From Candidatus Methanomethylophilaceae archaeon (GTDB taxonomy: Archaea; Thermoplasmatota; Thermoplasmata; Methanomassiliicoccales; Methanomethylophilaceae): a stretch of 11,352 nucleotides of DNA. The position numbers and the translations under genes were made by a program. The stretch spans positions 1 through 11,352 of the forward strand of contig JAFSYZ010000155.1 of NCBI GenBank assembly GCA_017455785.1. The letters run 5' to 3'. The notes beneath the pieces were generated by a model. It was given only the letters and a program-made list of their open reading frames with translations, did no database searches and had not been told where the DNA came from. Of the stretch, positions 1 to 11,352 are shown piece after piece (position 1 is the stretch's first letter; each line of letters begins with the position of its first letter).

Positions 1-74
1 GTAGTCCCGTCCGGATTCGAACCAGAGTCGCCGGCTCCAAAGGCCAGCATGATTGACCACTACACTACGGGACT
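1..74 (-). tRNA. tRNA-Gln (anticodon TTG)
   Basis: Read on the minus strand this folds into a complete cloverleaf. The acceptor AGTCCCG (74-68) pairs with CGGGACT (9-3). The D-stem is GTGT/ATGC. The anticodon stem CTGGC/GCCGG carries the loop CTTTGGA, which has T33 and places TTG at positions 34-36. The T-stem TCTGG/CCGGA carries the loop TTCGAAT. The discriminator is A at base 2. Base 1 reads C, so whether a CCA is encoded cannot be seen at the window edge. TTG decodes glutamine CAA codons. All stems pair with at most G-T wobbles, so it should be functional. Confidence 0.93.
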
Positions 75-98
75 GTGATTGCCCCACTGCCCATTTTC

Positions 99-108
99 CA
101 TATAAATT
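99..108 (-). promoter_or_regulatory. TATA box for tRNA-Gln
   Basis: On the minus strand the sequence ATTTATATGG lies about 26-33 bp upstream of the tRNA 5' end, the usual archaeal TATA distance. Call made from sequence and spacing only. Confidence 0.55.
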
Positions 109-187
109 GTTCTATCGTGATTTCTTTCTGTCTTTATTCATAAAAAAACGGATCTGATAATCCATCAGTATAATTTCCCATGGAATA

Positions 188-198
188 GACTATATTTT
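188..198 (+). promoter_or_regulatory. Possible TATA box before the tRNA-like region
   Basis: ACTATATTTT is a plausible archaeal TATA element. A start about 25 bp downstream would fall near 215-222, just inside the left arm of the long inverted repeat. It is the only good promoter candidate seen for transcribing 200-670 on the plus strand. Confidence 0.35.
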
Positions 199-200
199 CA

Positions 201-215
201 CAATGCTAAGGGGAT
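201..215 (+). repeat. Left arm of long-range inverted repeat
   Basis: CAATGCTAAGGGGAT is the reverse complement of the segment at 655-668 apart from one mismatch and one extra G. CAATGC pairs with GCATTG, and AAGGG-AT with ATCCCTT. The arms are about 440 bases apart. In an alternative register, AGGGGAT (209-215) gives a full 7-bp acceptor stem with ATCCCTT, the 3' acceptor strand of the last tRNA-like module. Confidence 0.6.
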
Positions 216-231
216 ATTGCCAAGATATAAC

Positions 232-255
232 ACAAATTCCCTTATCAGAATTTGT
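232..255 (+). other. Perfect 8-bp hairpin
   Basis: ACAAATTC (232-239) and GAATTTGT (248-255) are perfect reverse complements around the 8-base loop CCTTATCA. It directly precedes a second hairpin. It is not part of any cloverleaf recognised here. It could be an intron hairpin, a processing site or part of a structured RNA; there is no run of T after it to suggest a terminator. Confidence 0.6.
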
Positions 256-258
256 CGA

Positions 259-280
259 CCGTTACCCTCACGGGTTTCGG
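259..280 (+). other. Second hairpin with symmetric T-T internal loop
   Basis: CCG TT ACCC, loop TCAC, GGGT TT CGG: seven Watson-Crick pairs interrupted by a symmetric TT/TT internal loop. It lies 3 bases after the 232-255 hairpin. A smaller stem CTTG/CGAG with loop GATC follows at about 285-296. Confidence 0.5.
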
Positions 281-293
281 AGACTTGGATCCG

Positions 294-371
294 AGGATGT
301 AATGTCCTTGGGCACGGACAGCATCTCATCAGAGGTGGTTATCAGGTCGGGGTTCAAATCCCAGGTCTGGT
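294..371 (+). pseudogene. tRNA-like module A (degenerate)
   Basis: A D-arm-like stem GTCC (304-307)/GGAC (316-319) holds the loop TTGGGCAC with the expected GG. A possible anticodon stem CATCT/AGGTG (322-337) has the loop CATCAG, only 6 bases. A T-arm (348-364) has the normal loop TTCAAAT, but its stem carries a G-A mismatch. About 10 bases separate the anticodon and T stems. No good 5' partner for the acceptor strand GTCTGGT (365-371) was found locally. The T-arm is the main evidence; the rest is tentative. Confidence 0.4.
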
Positions 372-395
372 AAGGTGGCATGGTAATATCATATG

Positions 396-404
396 GATCA
401 TCAT
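396..404 (+). repeat. Direct repeat GATCATCAT, copy 1
   Basis: GATCATCAT occurs here and again at 470-478, on either side of tRNA-like module B. ATCATCAT occurs a third time at 503-510. Copy 1 includes the 5' acceptor strand of module B. Confidence 0.7.
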
Positions 405-471
405 TAGCACAGTCGGTAGTGGCGCCCGCGCCTTGAGCGGAAGATCGGGGGTTCGAGTCCCTCATGATTGA
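398..471 (+). pseudogene. tRNA-like module B (no U33, weak acceptor)
   Basis: The acceptor strands TCATCAT and ATGATTG (464-470) give five pairs plus one wobble and one mismatch. T8-A9 is present. The D-stem GCAC/GTGG has a mismatched outer pair and a normal D-loop AGTCGGTA. A 4-bp stem CCGC (426-429)/GCGG (437-440) holds the 7-base loop GCCTTGA, which would put CTT (Lys) in the anticodon slot but has C instead of T at position 33. The T-arm GGGGG-TTCGAGT-CCCTC is good. The discriminator is A at 471. It is too irregular for a confident functional call. Confidence 0.45.
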
Positions 472-478
472 TCATCAT
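470..478 (+). repeat. Direct repeat GATCATCAT, copy 2
   Basis: Identical to 396-404 and placed at the 3' edge of tRNA-like module B. With it, the module is flanked by 9-bp direct repeats. Confidence 0.7.
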
Positions 479-491
479 AATATCACGCGCT

Positions 492-502
492 TCAGCGCAT
501 TA
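492..502 (+). repeat. Direct repeat TCAGCGCATTA, copy 1
   Basis: This 11-bp sequence is repeated exactly at 521-531, where it forms the 5' acceptor strand plus T8-A9 of module C. The copies start 29 bp apart, separated by AT-rich sequence that contains the third ATCATCAT. GCGC-TTCA-GCGC (487-498) can also form a small hairpin here. Confidence 0.7.
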
Positions 503-520
503 ATCATCATGTCATTTATG

Positions 521-531
521 TCAGCGCATTA
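521..531 (+). repeat. Direct repeat TCAGCGCATTA, copy 2
   Basis: Exact copy of 492-502. It overlaps the 5' acceptor strand of module C. Confidence 0.7.
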
Positions 532-591
532 GTGTATAAGGAAACACGCCCGTCAACGCGGGAGTCATGGGTTCGACTCCCATATGCGCGT
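524..591 (+). pseudogene. tRNA-like module C (short anticodon arm)
   Basis: The acceptor AGCGCAT pairs with ATGCGCG (584-590) at six of seven positions. T8-A9 is present. The D-stem GTGT/ACAC is perfect with the loop ATAAGGAA. The T-stem ATGGG/CCCAT with loop TTCGACT is perfect. The anticodon arm is abnormal: CCCG (549-552)/CGGG (559-562) closes a loop of only 6 bases, TCAACG, so the arm is 14 bases rather than the usual 17. No anticodon can be assigned. It is the best-formed of the four modules, so it is either a tRNA damaged at the anticodon or a tRNA-like RNA that does not decode. Confidence 0.5.
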
Positions 592-601
592 CCGTGTACA
601 A

Positions 602-662
602 TTGGTCCGGGAACCAAACCAGTTAATCGCTGGTCCGGTGGGTTCGACTCCCACATCCCTTT
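602..662 (+). pseudogene. tRNA-like module D (3' body without local acceptor)
   Basis: Three perfect 5-bp stems occur in order: TTGGT/ACCAA with the 6-base loop CCGGGA; ACCAG/CTGGT with the 7-base loop TTAATCG; and GTGGG/CCCAC with the T-loop TTCGACT. Only three bases (CCG) separate the second and third stems, and none the first and second. The acceptor strand ATCCCTT (655-661) has no partner directly upstream, but AGGGGAT at 209-215 would pair with it fully. TGGTCCGG is repeated at 603-610 and 631-638. The slot-34 triplet would be AAT, which is unusual in archaea. Modules C and D share an identical 15-base T-arm core. Confidence 0.45.
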
Positions 663-668
663 GCATTG
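655..668 (+). repeat. Right arm of long-range inverted repeat
   Basis: ATCCCTTTGCATTG is the near-perfect reverse complement of 201-215. It begins exactly at the 3' acceptor strand of module D and ends 15 bp before the stop codon of the convergent methylthiotransferase gene. Confidence 0.6.
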
Positions 669-683
669 ATTATTTCAGAAGTA

Positions 684-1925
684 TTAGTTTTCCACAATGC
701 GTCCGGTTAGGAACGTGGGTGCAGAGCCTGTGACTTCTACTTCTAGGAAAGTACCTAATGGGATGTCGGCCTCGATGCCGATCGGTCTGTAGTTCCTGTT
801 CCTTGTGATGACCGTCGCTCCGCGTCCCTTCTCCGTGACAAGCACGCGGAATCTCTTCCCGATCAACGTATCGTTGACCGAGTGTTCCACGGACATCTTC
901 ATGTTGGTCAGTTCGGTGGAACGTTCCTTGCTGACGTTTCCTTGAACCTGATTCTTCATGGTCGCCGCATCCGTTCCCGGTCTCACCGAGAAGCGGGTTA
1001 TGTTCAGCGTGTCCGCATGCAGCTCCTTGATCAATTTCAGGCTCTTCTCATGGTCCTTATCCGCCTCACCCGGGAATCCGGTAATCATGTCGGTGGCGAT
1101 GCTGATGTCAGGGTATCTCTCCCTGAGGCGGTTAACGATGCCCATGAATCTCTCCACGGTATAGTGTCTCCTCATCCTTTCCAGGACCTGGTTGCTGCCG
1201 CTCTGCACGGGTATGTGCAGGAACCTGTAGACACGGTCGTCTTCCATGACCTCAAGGAGATCATCTAGTATCCTGTCCAGGTTGTTGGGGTTCATCATGC
1301 CGATCCTTATCCTGTATTCGCCATCGAATTCCAGGAACCTCTTCAAAAGTCTAGGAAGACTGGAACCTATGTCCACACCGTAGCATGCGGTGTCCTGTGC
1401 CGTTACAAGAATCTCCTTCGCACCCGAGTCCAACATCGACTTGAATTCCGATACCAGTTCGTCCTCCGGGTAACTTCTCAGCTTCCCTCTTGCGAAACGT
1501 GTGATGCAATAGGAACAGTTCCCTAAACATCCCTGTGCAATTGGCAGTATCGGCGATATGACGTTCTTCACAGCATCATCGGGGACAGAACATCCGAACG
1601 CGCTCTCCACCTTCCCTGTGAACAGGTCGTACTCATCAGGCGGTACGATCATCGATTCAGGGAGGCGGATCATTATCCTTTTCGGCTGCACCTTCGCCAT
1701 GCATCCGGTGACGATGACATCCTTTCCGGATGCTTTCAGTTCACCCATACGGTGGATCATCTTCTTCTCGGTGGTCTCCACCACGGTGCATGTGTTCAGA
1801 ATCACAATATCGGCATCGTCGGCATTGTCCACTCTGACATGACCTAGGGAATCCATCTTCTTGGAGAGCTGTTCGCCCTCACCGTAGTTCATCGTGCAAC
1901 CGTACGATTCCACGAAGTACTTCAT
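684..1925 (-). CDS. tRNA t6A37 methylthiotransferase (MtaB/CDKAL1-like)
   Basis: 413 residues, a normal length for the MiaB/MtaB radical-SAM methylthiotransferases. This archaeal/eukaryotic branch turns t6A37 of ANN-decoding tRNAs into ms2t6A, which supports accurate decoding. The N-terminal UPF0004 domain has its cluster cysteines at C10, C46 and C75. The radical-SAM motif is CLGNCSYC (C133, C137, C140). A TRAM RNA-binding domain occupies roughly residues 350-413. The ATG start lies 7 bp after the aIF2-beta stop, so the two genes are probably co-transcribed and translationally coupled. The stop is TAA. Substrate specificity is inferred from the family branch, not shown by the sequence. Confidence 0.92.
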   Translation of the reverse strand: MKYFVESYGCTMNYGEGEQLSKKMDSLGHVRVDNADDADIVILNTCTVVETTEKKMIHRMGELKASGKDVIVTGCMAKVQPKRIMIRLPESMIVPPDEYDLFTGKVESAFGCSVPDDAVKNVISPILPIAQGCLGNCSYCITRFARGKLRSYPEDELVSEFKSMLDSGAKEILVTAQDTACYGVDIGSSLPRLLKRFLEFDGEYRIRIGMMNPNNLDRILDDLLEVMEDDRVYRFLHIPVQSGSNQVLERMRRHYTVERFMGIVNRLRERYPDISIATDMITGFPGEADKDHEKSLKLIKELHADTLNITRFSVRPGTDAATMKNQVQGNVSKERSTELTNMKMSVEHSVNDTLIGKRFRVLVTEKGRGATVITRNRNYRPIGIEADIPLGTFLEVEVTGSAPTFLTGRIVEN

Positions 1926-1932
1926 GTCAATC

Positions 1933-2568
1933 TCAGCGTGTCGCTGCCTCTGTTGTCAATGCACCGAATGCCGTCTTAGCGGACACGTTGGTGATCTTCA
2001 CACGGACTGTCGTACCCTTGACAGTACCTGGGACGATGACGATGAAGTCCATCATCTTTCCGATACCGTCACCCTTCTTACCGACGTCGCTGATGAACAC
2101 ATCGATGATGTCTCCTTCCTTCAGGGCGTTGACGGAGTCGGATCTGACTCCCTTCTTGACGTTGACGGGTCTGTGGGCACCGCAGGCCTCACATTCCAGA
2201 ACGAGGGTCCTTCCTTCCTTGACCATCTTCGTGTCGGGGCGTCCGCACTCGGAACAGATGACGAATGTGTCCGTGTAGTTCTGGATCTTGTCGGTGATAT
2301 GGCCGGCGCTGATCTTTGATTTCAGGACAACCCTGCGTCCTTCGAGGTTACCGGGTGTTCCCAGTTCCCTCAGGAGGAACTGCAGCACGTGCTGTGGATC
2401 CCTTCTGAGTGTGTCTGTGACGTCGATGAAGTTCCTTATCACGGTCATCTTTCCTTCCTGGAGGATCTCCAGTTCAGGGATCGAGAACCTTTCGTGCGAT
2501 TCAGCCACCTCGGGCAGCTGTTCCTTCGCCCTGTCCAATAATGCGAAATAATCTTCATCTGCTGTCAT
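1933..2568 (-). CDS. eif2b: Translation initiation factor aIF2 subunit beta, with TRAM domain
   Basis: 211 residues. In the aIF2 heterotrimer, beta binds gamma and helps deliver initiator Met-tRNA to the small ribosomal subunit. The N-terminal helix and alpha-beta core span about residues 1-100. A C-terminal zinc ribbon with C105, C108, C126 and C129 (C-x2-C-x17-C-x2-C) follows. Residues about 140-211 add a TRAM-type beta-barrel (motifs EGDIIDVFISDVGKKGDGIG and the downstream VPGT). A standard archaeal aIF2-beta is near 135-140 residues, so the TRAM is a true extension. The start ATG is preceded by AGAGGCG at suitable spacing. The stop is TGA. Confidence 0.92.
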   Translation of the reverse strand: MTADEDYFALLDRAKEQLPEVAESHERFSIPELEILQEGKMTVIRNFIDVTDTLRRDPQHVLQFLLRELGTPGNLEGRRVVLKSKISAGHITDKIQNYTDTFVICSECGRPDTKMVKEGRTLVLECEACGAHRPVNVKKGVRSDSVNALKEGDIIDVFISDVGKKGDGIGKMMDFIVIVPGTVKGTTVRVKITNVSAKTAFGALTTEAATR

Positions 2569-2604
2569 AAGAACGCCTCTGTTGGGGTGGCTTATGAGGG
2601 ACCC

Positions 2605-7926: not shown

Positions 7927-7999
7927 GGGCAGTTAGATCAGCTGGAAGATCGCTTGCTTTGCAAGCAAGAGGTCGCGCGTTCAAATCGCGCACTGTCCA
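7927..7999 (+). tRNA. tRNA-Ala (anticodon TGC)
   Basis: Complete cloverleaf: acceptor GGGCAGT/ACTGTCC with one G-T pair, T8-A9, D-stem GATC/GATC with loop AGCTGGAA, anticodon stem CTTGC/GCAAG with loop TTTGCAA (T33, TGC at 34-36), variable AGGTC, T-arm GCGCG-TTCAAAT-CGCGC and discriminator A at 7999. CCA is not encoded. The wobble pair at position 3 of the acceptor is G3-T70, the classic alanine identity element. Its 3' end appears to be the attachment site of the element that follows. Confidence 0.95.
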
Positions 8000-8000
8000 C
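7978..8000 (+). other. Probable attachment site (att) at the tRNA-Ala 3' end
   Basis: The T-arm and acceptor 3' strand of tRNA-Ala are directly followed by repeats and an integrase gene pointing towards the tRNA, the standard arrangement for archaeal tyrosine-recombinase integration. No second copy of the tRNA 3' end was found up to 11352, so the far att site is outside the window or lost. Exact core limits are unknown. Confidence 0.5.
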
Positions 8001-8162
8001 TTTCTTTGTCCACCCAGACTTGAAATTTCAGGATTTTCATTGTCCACCAATTTCTGCGGTTCTGTCCACCACTCAGACGGTTCTGTCCACCTGTAGCAGT
8101 TGATGCATTGTCCGCCTCTCCCGGTGTATTGTCCACCAGTCACAGTTCGACCGTTGTCCACC
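7994..8162 (+). repeat. Phased array of eight TGTCCAC repeats
   Basis: TGTCCAC starts at 7994, 8007, 8041, 8063, 8084, 8130 and 8155, with a one-base variant TGTCCGC at 8109. Most copies extend to (T/C)TGTCCACC. From the third copy on, the starts are 22, 21, 25, 21 and 25 bp apart, near two helical turns; the intervening sequences differ. The first copy is the 3' end of tRNA-Ala itself. The likeliest role is arm-type binding sites for the integrase or its accessory factor at attL. Iteron-like replication or control sites are alternatives. No protein gene fits this stretch. Confidence 0.75.
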
Positions 8163-8173
8163 GGGGGTAGGAT

Positions 8174-8809
8174 TCACTCCCCCTTTACGGAGGGGAGCGA
8201 TTCTTGGGAAGAGGTTTGATCGCGGTCGGCATCCCACGTTGCGCGGGCCTTCTCCATCGCCATGATGTTCTTCTGCCTGCCGTAGTACTTCTCGGTGGTC
8301 CTCGTCGATGCGTGGCCCATGAGAACGCTCACCGAAGTGAGCTCGAGGTTCTGGTCGATGTATCTCTGACCGAAGGTCCTCCTGCACTCGCGGAGCTCGA
8401 AGCGGATCTGGAGATCCTGCTCGACGATCTCCTTCATCCTTCTGAGGGAGTTGCCGCATAGGAAACCGTCCTTGCTGGAGTCCGACGGGAACAGGGCCTT
8501 TGAAGGGCTGTGGTGGTCGAAGATCCACTTGGAGCGGGCCTTGAGGTATCTCTCGACGACAGGCCTGATCTCCTCGCGTATCGGGACCGTACGGGCCTCT
8601 CCGTAGGACGCTTCGCCCTTGACATGCACGATGTCGAGAGTCCACGCCCTTGTGTCGATGTCGGTCACTTCCGCCAGACGGATCTCCTTGTTTCTTGTGC
8701 CGGTGTCTATGCACAGGAGCACCAATGCGTAAGCCCTTATGCGGTTGAAGTCCTCGGGATCCACGGCCAATCCTCTCTGGAGAATCGCCTGGTAGGTCTC
8801 GTCGGACAT
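8174..8809 (-). CDS. Tyrosine recombinase (integrase), catalytic domain only
   Basis: 211 residues equal to the catalytic half of a phage-type integrase. Active-site residues are R39 (in TGTRNKE), K64 (VHVKGE), R143, H166 (LMGHAS) and nucleophile Y175 (TTEKYYGR). The first residue of the usual HxxR box is Arg (R140-E-C-R143). The N-terminal core-binding domain is missing: upstream in frame come TCT, TCC and then TAG at 8816-8818, and the sequence before that codes in another frame. The ATG at 8809 is therefore a convenient start, with only a distant AGAGAGG before it. It ends with TGA just short of the repeat array. It is probably a remnant, although the catalytic residues are intact. Confidence 0.8.
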   Translation of the reverse strand: MSDETYQAILQRGLAVDPEDFNRIRAYALVLLCIDTGTRNKEIRLAEVTDIDTRAWTLDIVHVKGEASYGEARTVPIREEIRPVVERYLKARSKWIFDHHSPSKALFPSDSSKDGFLCGNSLRRMKEIVEQDLQIRFELRECRRTFGQRYIDQNLELTSVSVLMGHASTRTTEKYYGRQKNIMAMEKARATWDADRDQTSSQESLPSVKGE

Positions 8810-9834: not shown

Positions 9835-11352
9835 ATGATCAATACACCATCTGGAAAGTCAAGAAAGGGCCGCTCGCCTACCGTTTTAGCGATGGCAGTC
9901 CTGACCGCGTTGGTATTGTCACTGGGAACTTTCACCCTGTGCATAGACAATTCATCCGACGCGGACGGAACAACTGTGCATGTGAATACATGGGGCGAGC
10001 TTCAGAACGCTCTGAAGAATTGCGGAGACTATGACGTCATCATTCTCGATAGCGACATCGATCTGAACGAAGATTCCGATGAAGAGGAGGTCAAAAATGT
10101 CAATAACCTCACCGTGGACCTCAACGGCCATACGATCGACGGTAACCATTACGAGCACGGCCTGCACGAAGGACGCTTCTTCCACATAGGGGAAAATGCT
10201 GTAGTCATCGTTATGAACGGAACTCTTACCAATGGATTCGATGATGACGGAGGCTGTGTTTATGTCGAAGAGGAAGGAGATCTGCGCTTCCAAAATGTGA
10301 ATGTCATCAACTGCGGTTCGAGCGACGATGGTGCCGCGATTTTCGTCAACGGGGGCTATTTCGTGATGAACGGAGGCAAGATTGATGAATGCGACTCTTC
10401 GGACAACGCCGGAGCGATATACGTGAACAACGGAGCATACATTGAATTAACCGATGTCCAGATAACGAATAATCATGCGAGGGGGCACGGAGGGGCGATA
10501 GAGTTTACCGAATTATCGGAGGGCCTAATCAAGAATTGTACATTCCAGCACGATTATTGCAAGGATGAAGGGGGCGCCCTTTTCATCGAGGATAAATCCG
10601 GAGTTTATCTCGATAATTGCAAATTCATAGAAAATGGCAGTAGCCAGGGGGATCACGGAGGGGCGTTATACCTCAATGATGCCATGATAATAATTAACTG
10701 CTGCTCGTTCCAAAAAAATGAGGCGGGTGCTCACGGAGGGGCGATCTACGCCGTAGATTCAGATATGCAGATAATATCGGATGGAGAGCACAACGATTTC
10801 ACAGGCAACTCGTCATGGGAGTCCGGTGGCGCCATGTTCATCAAGGGATCAAGTGTCAAAATCAAATTTGCCGACTTCAAAGATAATGGCGCAGCCCAAC
10901 TCAATAGCAGCGATAAAGGCGAGGGCGGTGCGATCTTCATCGACGACGATTCGGTAGTGTATCTCGAGTTCTGTACCTTTATCGGCAACAAGGCTAAAAC
11001 CAACGGCGGAGGAATAGTGATCGAAGATGACGATAACATCAGTCTCTATATGAATAATCTCGTCGTTATAAAAGATAACAAGATCGCCACAAATGAGGAG
11101 ACCTTCTCCGATTCCAACCTCGTCATCCGTTCCGATCTGAGGATAAACTGCGGATTTCTGACCTATGATTCGGAGATCTGGATCGCCCTGGACGGCGGTG
11201 AGAGAGTCTTCACCTCTAACTTCAGCACGAACAACCCTGGCAAGGATCCTGCACTGTTCTTCAAGAGCACCGATACCAACCGCTATGTCGCAGCCGACCC
11301 GGATTCGAAGGAGGCCAGGCTCTACGGCGGATCGGCAGGAGACATGTCGGAC
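9835..11352 (+). CDS. Adhesin-like surface protein with beta-helix GGAI/FxxN repeats (partial)
   Basis: 506 codons remain open to the window edge; the C-terminus is missing. A basic N-terminus (SRKGR) is followed by a hydrophobic stretch, about residues 16-37, acting as signal peptide or anchor. From about residue 50 it looks like a right-handed parallel beta-helix. At least nine G-G-A-hydrophobic motifs occur (for example GGAIYAV, GGALFIE, GGALYLN, GGAMFIK, GGAIFID, GGGIVIE), alternating with FxxN-type motifs (FIENG, FTGNS, FKDNG, FIGNK). This pairing is the signature of chlamydial Pmp-type repeats and of adhesin-like proteins in gut methanogens. It is acidic. A role in surface adhesion is inferred. 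The missing end would be expected to hold an anchor. Confidence 0.85.
   Translation, partial: MINTPSGKSRKGRSPTVLAMAVLTALVLSLGTFTLCIDNSSDADGTTVHVNTWGELQNALKNCGDYDVIILDSDIDLNEDSDEEEVKNVNNLTVDLNGHTIDGNHYEHGLHEGRFFHIGENAVVIVMNGTLTNGFDDDGGCVYVEEEGDLRFQNVNVINCGSSDDGAAIFVNGGYFVMNGGKIDECDSSDNAGAIYVNNGAYIELTDVQITNNHARGHGGAIEFTELSEGLIKNCTFQHDYCKDEGGALFIEDKSGVYLDNCKFIENGSSQGDHGGALYLNDAMIIINCCSFQKNEAGAHGGAIYAVDSDMQIISDGEHNDFTGNSSWESGGAMFIKGSSVKIKFADFKDNGAAQLNSSDKGEGGAIFIDDDSVVYLEFCTFIGNKAKTNGGGIVIEDDDNISLYMNNLVVIKDNKIATNEETFSDSNLVIRSDLRINCGFLTYDSEIWIALDGGERVFTSNFSTNNPGKDPALFFKSTDTNRYVAADPDSKEARLYGGSAGDMSD

Follow-up and report, generated by a model that had tools for sequence, protein, structure and literature searches.

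Four tandem transfer RNA (tRNA)-like modules on a contig of a Candidatus Methanomethylophilaceae archaeon (JAFSYZ010000155.1, assembly GCA_017455785.1), whose entire analyzed stretch of 11,352 nucleotides (nt) is referred to here as the window, belong to a new structured RNA family, within which comparative searches place them. The region bearing the four T-arms is read as one RNA gene because it opens with a conserved 5' domain (positions 219-288). With moderate confidence, the modules can be regarded as parts of a single predicted gene, spanning approximately 219-663 on the plus strand, whose product is likely a non-decoding, architectural scaffold. What emerges is an archaeal family without an Rfam relative, with up to seven members per genome, a common start, and exchangeable bodies; no description of it was found in the literature searched. 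With these features, and with tRNA folds that mostly lack decoding parts, the family offers a clean system in which to ask what giant structured RNAs do.

A family defined by its 5' domain

A DNA search of 41 genomes with positions 201-668 returned one other match, located on a second contig (C116) of the same genome and 76% identical over 202-289. This match lies upstream of the T-arms, and a T-arm followed by TTTT occurs further along the C116 locus. A covariance model built from these two sequences (R2) recovered 10 further members (E ≤0.022) from 147 genomes of what is probably the order Methanomassiliicoccales, three weaker rows (L046-L048) being dropped by eye. A second model, built from the 12 members (R3), found four more outside its training set, with E-values of 3.9e-9 to 6.8e-5. 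R3 rows above E 0.01 were dropped, namely seven in the scan of the 147 genomes and four in a scan of 389 genomes drawn from the phylum (one shared); L073, L074, and L090-L092 were inspected and taken as chance, and L075-L079 were excluded by E-value alone. Under stricter filters, the total came to 16 elements: seven in the window's genome (G000), four in G093, two in G100, and one each in G091, G058, and G124.

Within the window's genome, nothing beyond the seven copies matched up to E 10, and no further convincing member appeared among the 389 phylum genomes. In 39 relatives scanned with laxer filters, no member fell below E 0.05, and G003 (E 0.056) was excluded by E-value. A pattern scan of genome contigs produced 14 matches, five of which score as members (from 'Thermoplasmata archaeon' SIG2, SIG4, and SIG8) and nine of which were taken as chance. 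Across the 147 genomes, the first core pattern matched two known loci and one site in G130, the latter taken as P-loop coding sequence. In viral contigs, the same pattern matched twice, but visual inspection showed the second half of the core to be missing from both matches, and they were discarded; a longer core pattern matched nowhere, and a relaxed one gave 35 matches that were taken as chance (best R3 E 0.011). A cmscan search of all 16 loci against Rfam, at E up to 0.5, returned only tRNA, besides sub-threshold hits to C/D-box families and to two plastid families. At the C116 locus, sub-threshold C/D-box sRNA matches lie just downstream of the element (L033 2282-2335, equivalent to G000:C116:7781-7834, minus strand; 34 bits, cut-off 45).

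The shared core is a three-way junction (Table 1) composed of P0, a P1 hairpin mostly opening with ACA and closing with TGT, a CGA linker, P2, in which CCG and CGG enclose a hairpin, and an AGA linker. The window matches the covariance model over 217-293 with E 1.5e-15, being itself part of the training set. Among the 12 aligned sequences, 93.4% of the cells pair, compared with 86.1 after shuffling. Both partners change in 13 cells, against 5.0 after shuffling (0 of 500 as high), and the covariation measure reaches 0.264 against 0.129 (again 0 of 500). Sliding the partners by one column halved the junction pairing. A larger alignment (A6), which was fitted to the structure and includes five weak rows, gave a covariation of 0.338 against 0.152.

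In all 16 elements, a TATA-like box precedes the first junction strand, starting 29-33 nt before it. This is the best match in 14 of them and, by a difference of 0.2, the second best in the other two. Judging from the archaeal TATA consensus and the usual distance between this box and the transcription start, the RNA is predicted to begin at or beside CCAAG.

Table 1. Features of the predicted RNA gene and its immediate neighbors, in window coordinates.
Feature	Position	Strand	Description
tRNA-Gln	1-74	-	ARAGORN
TATA-like box TATATTTT	191-198	+	Starts 29 nt upstream of CCAAG
5' domain, three-way junction	219-288	+	70 nt; covariance model and covariation
P0	CCAAG 220-224 / CTTGG 284-288	+	Junction helix
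P1	232-239 / 248-255	+	Junction hairpin
P2	CCG 259-261 / CGG 278-280	+	Encloses hairpin 264-267 / 272-275
Hairpin after 5' domain	291-311	+	Predicted folds of 201-668 and 218-664
Closing helix, 5' strand CACGGAC	313-319	+	Inverted repeat I4, predicted to pair with 590-596; both folds
Module A	339-373	+	T-arm 348-364 on long helix, no anticodon or D part; predicted folds
Module B	398-471	+	tRNA-like, loop GCCTTGA; Rfam tRNA 30.8 bits; ARAGORN Lys-CTT
Module C	523-591	+	tRNA-like, shortened loop at anticodon position; Rfam tRNA 42.4 bits
Closing helix, 3' strand GTCCGTG	590-596	+	Directly before module D; inverted repeat, predicted folds
Module D, 3' terminal	602-654	+	D-like hairpin 602-617 (GG in loop), hairpin 618-634, T-arm 638-654 (TTCGACT); acceptor-less
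mtaB-like gene	684-1925	-	UPF0004, Radical_SAM, and TRAM domains

The tRNA-like modules

The original prediction, made from the window alone, described four tandem T-arms (loops TTCAAAT, TTCGAGT, TTCGACT, and TTCGACT) in a gene-free stretch. All four are present (348-364, 447-463, 567-583, and 638-654), spanning 307 nt between the tRNA-Gln and mtaB-like genes. No gene is evident in the stretch, whose longest listed open reading frames (ORFs) measure 84 and 65 amino acids (aa), with none above 84 aa. The prediction had overlooked the conserved 5' domain at 219-288. The departures from tRNA rules that it ascribed to three of the bodies were likewise borne out: module B has C in place of U33 and a weak acceptor, module C presents a 6-base loop (TCAACG) at the anticodon position, and module D has a 3-base variable region and no adjoining acceptor partner. 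For module A, the T-stem mismatch stands (CGGGG-TTCAAAT-CCCAG, one mismatch), but the supposed 6-base anticodon loop does not, there being no such arm. Predicted folds suggest that module A is not so much a damaged tRNA as a long helix bearing a T-arm.

Among the four modules, ARAGORN calls only B, as tRNA-Lys(CTT). The Rfam tRNA model places B and C above its cut-off of 29 bits, while A and D are missing from its matches up to E 1; the acceptor stem of C has six pairs. Inspected by eye, module D has a 7-base loop with U33, as do modules 1, 2, and 4 of G093, and these are the only four of 16 tRNA-like modules compared that keep both features. T-arms are kept across the 16 modules, and the D-like hairpin is kept in most. 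When folded alone, A (z -2.70) and C (z -2.06) are more stable than shuffles, whereas B (z 0.51) and D (z -0.78) are not. The genome's own Lys tRNAs score 68.3 bits (CTT) and 74.9 bits (TTT), compared with 30.8 for B, and the genome also has a Cys (GCA) tRNA. Modules 1, 4, and 5 of G093 align better with B than with any G000 tRNA in the set. The original prediction had also raised the option of intron-bearing tRNAs; at the window's locus, an intron-aware linear ARAGORN search found only tRNA-Gln and B, restoring no tRNA from A, C, or D. In the relative G124 (L072), intron-aware ARAGORN called a tRNA-Leu(CAA) that extends over two modules and contains a 47-nt intron.

Variable bodies and shared 3' ends

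With 3' ends estimated, the elements range from about 120 nt (C136 and C127) to about 1160 nt (G093 C21) and 1230 nt (G058), and the two shortest look like natural minimal versions. Beyond the junction, the bodies differ greatly, comprising hairpin arrays (with ACCAC or GTCA loops), tandem repeats, or tRNA-like modules, and their sequence conservation between members is low. The 16 elements contain 17 T-arms in 9470 nt, compared with a mean of 0.11 and a maximum of 1 in 100 dinucleotide shuffles. These T-arms are found in seven elements and are absent from nine (e.g., C136, C277, and G058). The minimum free energy (MFE) z-scores of the elements extend from -0.01 to -12.8, with 13 of 16 below -2 (12-30 shuffles each).

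Five members (the window with module D, C116, G100 C212, G124, and G093 C21) were judged by eye to end in a like 3' module, consisting of two hairpins, the first with GG in its loop, and, a few nt further on, a TTCGACT T-arm, with no acceptor; the alignment of these modules (A7) is poor. Folded alone, the module forms its three hairpins in G093 C21, and the D-like hairpin fails to form in window D and C116. A double-hairpin 3' end is found in C277, C78, G093 C17, and G091, with four of 14 pairs changed on both sides. The C277/C78 consensus contains 207 pairs, of which five are changed on both sides and none are broken, RNAalifold being a method that favors compatible pairs.

G093 C21 additionally carries three tRNA-Cys(GCA)-like modules (L042 574-644, 972-1042, and 1045-1115, minus strand) that are near-identical except for their acceptor stems, in which three of seven pairs are changed on both sides (n = 3; shuffles reach the covariation score in 53 of 500 cases). 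Because the GCA anticodon is kept, these three modules may still decode.

Predicted folds of the window RNA

Thermodynamic predictions for the window RNA agree in part only. When 201-668 is folded, all three junction helices (P0, P1, and P2), the closing helix, and the three D hairpins form, but positions 201-212, which precede the predicted start, are also paired; the z-score is -5.04, and none of 100 shuffles is as low. In the MFE fold of 218-664 (z -2.85, again with none of 100 shuffles as low), P1, P2, and the closing helix are retained. In the window, none of 208 other body windows and nine of 500 shuffles score as high as this helix. A similar pairing in G093 C21, with strands about 980 nt apart, is equaled by seven of 500 shuffles, but also by 19 of 921 body windows. 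These pairings offer a suggestion that the body may be closed over a long range; as a family-wide rule, the closing helix was rejected, with only two of the nine elements tested standing out.

Two further repeats were considered and set aside. The inverted repeat 201-212 / 657-668, viewed as a tmRNA-style (transfer-messenger RNA) acceptor for module D, scores 24.5, within the range of shuffles (mean 22.1, maximum 27), and was also discarded as a helix of the transcript, given that the start predicted from the TATA-like box is near 219. The near-perfect direct repeat 195-206 / 689-700, viewed as a target-site duplication, is not above chance by a rough estimate.

A proposed architectural role and its alternatives

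In the mechanism we favor, a non-coding RNA would be transcribed from about 219 to about 663, its D-like and T loops would pair as in a tRNA elbow, and its body would be closed by the long-range helix. By analogy with GOLLD, the RNA would probably form an architectural particle or scaffold, with tRNA folds used as building bricks rather than in decoding. Three points led to the choice of an architectural role: the longer members show high self-complementarity and have no partner gene beside them; the tRNA folds are mostly kept while their decoding parts are not; and GOLLD, the nearest analogue, can, in the excerpted account of it, carry tRNAs, is half-variable, and builds an RNA cage. The original prediction had listed tRNA-like RNAs with a non-decoding role among its options, and this one is supported. 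Its option of an acquired tRNA array is not: the modules lie in a larger RNA that has a 5' domain and a TATA-like box of its own, and nine of the 16 members have no T-arm.

It is rather unlikely that the modules instead act as processing signals, with RNase P and RNase Z recognizing them in a precursor and excising active segments from between them. RNase P acts on acceptor/T-arm helices, and modules B and C, together with three G093 modules, keep near-complete acceptor stems and T-arms. Module D and its four counterparts, however, have no adjoining acceptor stem, the nine elements devoid of T-arms would offer no such signal, and body sequence is little conserved between members.

A decoy or sponge, whose elbows titrate a tRNA-binding or tRNA-cutting protein (e.g., a modification enzyme or an invader's anticodon nuclease), is distinctly unlikely. 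Retention of the D-like and T arms alongside an often altered anticodon part would suit this role, as would the patchy distribution and the match of a protein beside C277 to the defense model BrxP (E 3.8e-49). Yet members without any T-arm have the same 5' domain, and BrxP is the sole strong match among nine flanking proteins scanned with PADLOC, the only other one being weak (a Sel1-repeat protein, E 0.00046).

The distribution of the element bears on a further alternative, namely that it is a selfish mobile RNA resembling a short interspersed nuclear element (SINE), with spread as its sole function. An mtaB match was found in 29 of 31 genomes, and the stretch behind mtaB was examined in 15 relatives. 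In 11 of these, only 21-88 nt separate the mtaB match from the start of tRNA-Gln, and no element lies between; here, tRNA-Gln starts at 613, and an R3 scan of 19 mtaB loci detected the core at the window's locus only. On the favored reading, too, species seem to have gained and lost the gene, or it seems to have moved among them. C277 and C78 share two stretches of 89% and 82% identity, which together cover the RNA and go no further than its ends. In the C26/C116 (C26 being the window's contig) and C136/C127 pairs, likeness extends past the RNA start into the promoter region. G093 C12 and G100 C5 occupy the same locus (1257-nt flank homology) and have diverged in sequence, both partners having changed in 20 of the 98 predicted pairs; their common flanks therefore point to probable descent in place. 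The gene has probably been both inherited and moved. A SINE-like nature would account for the seven copies in one genome, the absence between mtaB and tRNA-Gln in the 11 relatives, and the sharp ends of the C277/C78 identity, but is quite improbable: the paired changes between G093 C12 and G100 C5 suggest selection on structure after insertion, and likeness that runs into the promoter region is unlike copying from RNA.

Finally, a decayed tRNA array inserted beside tRNA-Gln is exceedingly improbable, for although each body departs from tRNA rules and a tRNA gene adjoins, the 5' domain recurs at 15 other loci, the T-arms are intact or nearly so, pairs are changed on both sides, and no tRNA stands out as a source in a comparison covering G000 tRNAs only. 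Random substitution across relatives, which the original prediction took as the mark of a dead array, is contradicted by the covarying junction helices of the 12 members; the G093 modules, with both sides changed at three of seven pairs, point the same way, although the shuffle control is weak at n = 3. We do not regard the region as a dead tRNA array because Rfam fits only tRNA to it, no neighbor family occurs in more than two of 20 flanking proteins, and separate Lys tRNAs score better.

Several observations weigh against the reading of the gene as one member of a family of architectural RNAs. The family is confined to six of the 147 genomes, and two of the five junction measures lie within shuffles (both-side-changed pairs, 76 of 500; further pair types, 254 of 500). 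The MFE fold of 218-664 lacks P0 and the D-like hairpin, both formed in the 201-668 fold, and P0 therefore rests on covariation across members rather than on the energy model. The closing helix stands out in a minority of the elements tested, and the folding of three small members hardly surpasses that of shuffles, if at all (C116, z -0.01; G124, z -1.27; G100 C212, z -1.78). At the mtaB locus, G006 has tRNA-Gln at 624, a similarly long gap but no core, and no tRNA was found behind mtaB in G005, G017, and G010. Moreover, the draft assembly of the window's genome comprises 303 contigs and is 85% complete. The scaffold function itself is proposed by analogy.

A bolder version of the architectural reading is put forward as a tentative possibility. 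Here, the elements would form a self-assembling family of giant archaeal RNAs, evolved independently of GOLLD and ROOL, that always begin with the three-way junction, end in an elbow or a double hairpin, and exchange their middles freely; mobile and modular, these RNAs would build particles from tRNA folds.

Genomic context

The window's contig (G000:C26) carries archaeal translation genes, named from their ORFs as uS12, uS7, elongation factor (EF)-2, EF-1alpha, and uS10, and ARAGORN finds normal tRNA-Gln and tRNA-Ala genes in the window. At 7927-8809 on the minus strand, tRNA-Ala(TGC) is followed by an ORF of the phage-integrase family (PF00589, E 2.9e-18), a likely remnant of an integrated element. 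The start of a large protein, with weak matches to polymorphic-membrane-protein and pectate-lyase-like adhesion proteins, occupies 9835-11352. The RNase P RNA of the genome lies elsewhere, at C88:986-1279 (RNaseP_arch, E 4.9e-63), and an Rfam model search of the genome gave no RNaseP_arch match on contig C26. When a phage collection was searched with window positions 1-2600, the sole match was a halovirus tRNA-Gln region.

The 20 flanking proteins scanned across the family look chromosomal, and no Pfam family occurs among them more than twice (Sel1 and PUA, twice each). The neighbor of C277 (L057 10016-11872) is a PAPS-reductase and PUA protein that matches, besides BrxP, the models SspD and DndC; a PUA protein also flanks C129. 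Judging from ORF starts, the C116 (L060) and G093 C54 (L062) elements sit at different spots in seemingly the same gene cluster. The C129 (L056) and G058 (L066) elements each follow a 663-aa ORF, which in G058 encodes a Sel1/ABC-ATPase protein; the C129 ORF was likened to it by first residues alone.

Comparison with known systems

A tRNA-like fold in a non-decoding RNA has a precedent in the YrlA-type Y RNAs, which are short and linked to the Ro protein; they differ from the present family, whose 16 loci show no Rfam match to them. Like tmRNA, the window RNA would be long and end in a tRNA-like structure. However, an ARAGORN tmRNA search found no such gene in the window, the 3' module is acceptor-less, and the 5'/3' complementarity (201-212 / 657-668) would draw on positions that precede the predicted start.

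The giant structured RNAs GOLLD, ROOL, and OLE were described from bacteria and phages. Members of the archaeal family resemble ROOL and OLE, in the excerpted account of these RNAs, in being long, densely structured, and of poorly understood function, but the 16 loci have no Rfam match to either up to E 0.5, and ROOL and OLE have no tRNA-like modules as described in the excerpt of PMC12286853. GOLLD is closer. According to the same excerpt, it is large and ornate, partly conserved and partly variable, sometimes has tRNAs in a linker region, and forms an RNA nanocage (PMC12286853). The present family differs in that its conserved part is the 5' end, its loci lie among archaeal chromosomal genes, the 16 loci give no Rfam GOLLD match, and the patterns used detected no member in the viral collection. 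Nonetheless, measured against that partial account, the archaeal RNAs are GOLLD-like in being large, in joining a conserved to a variable part, and in carrying tRNA-like parts.
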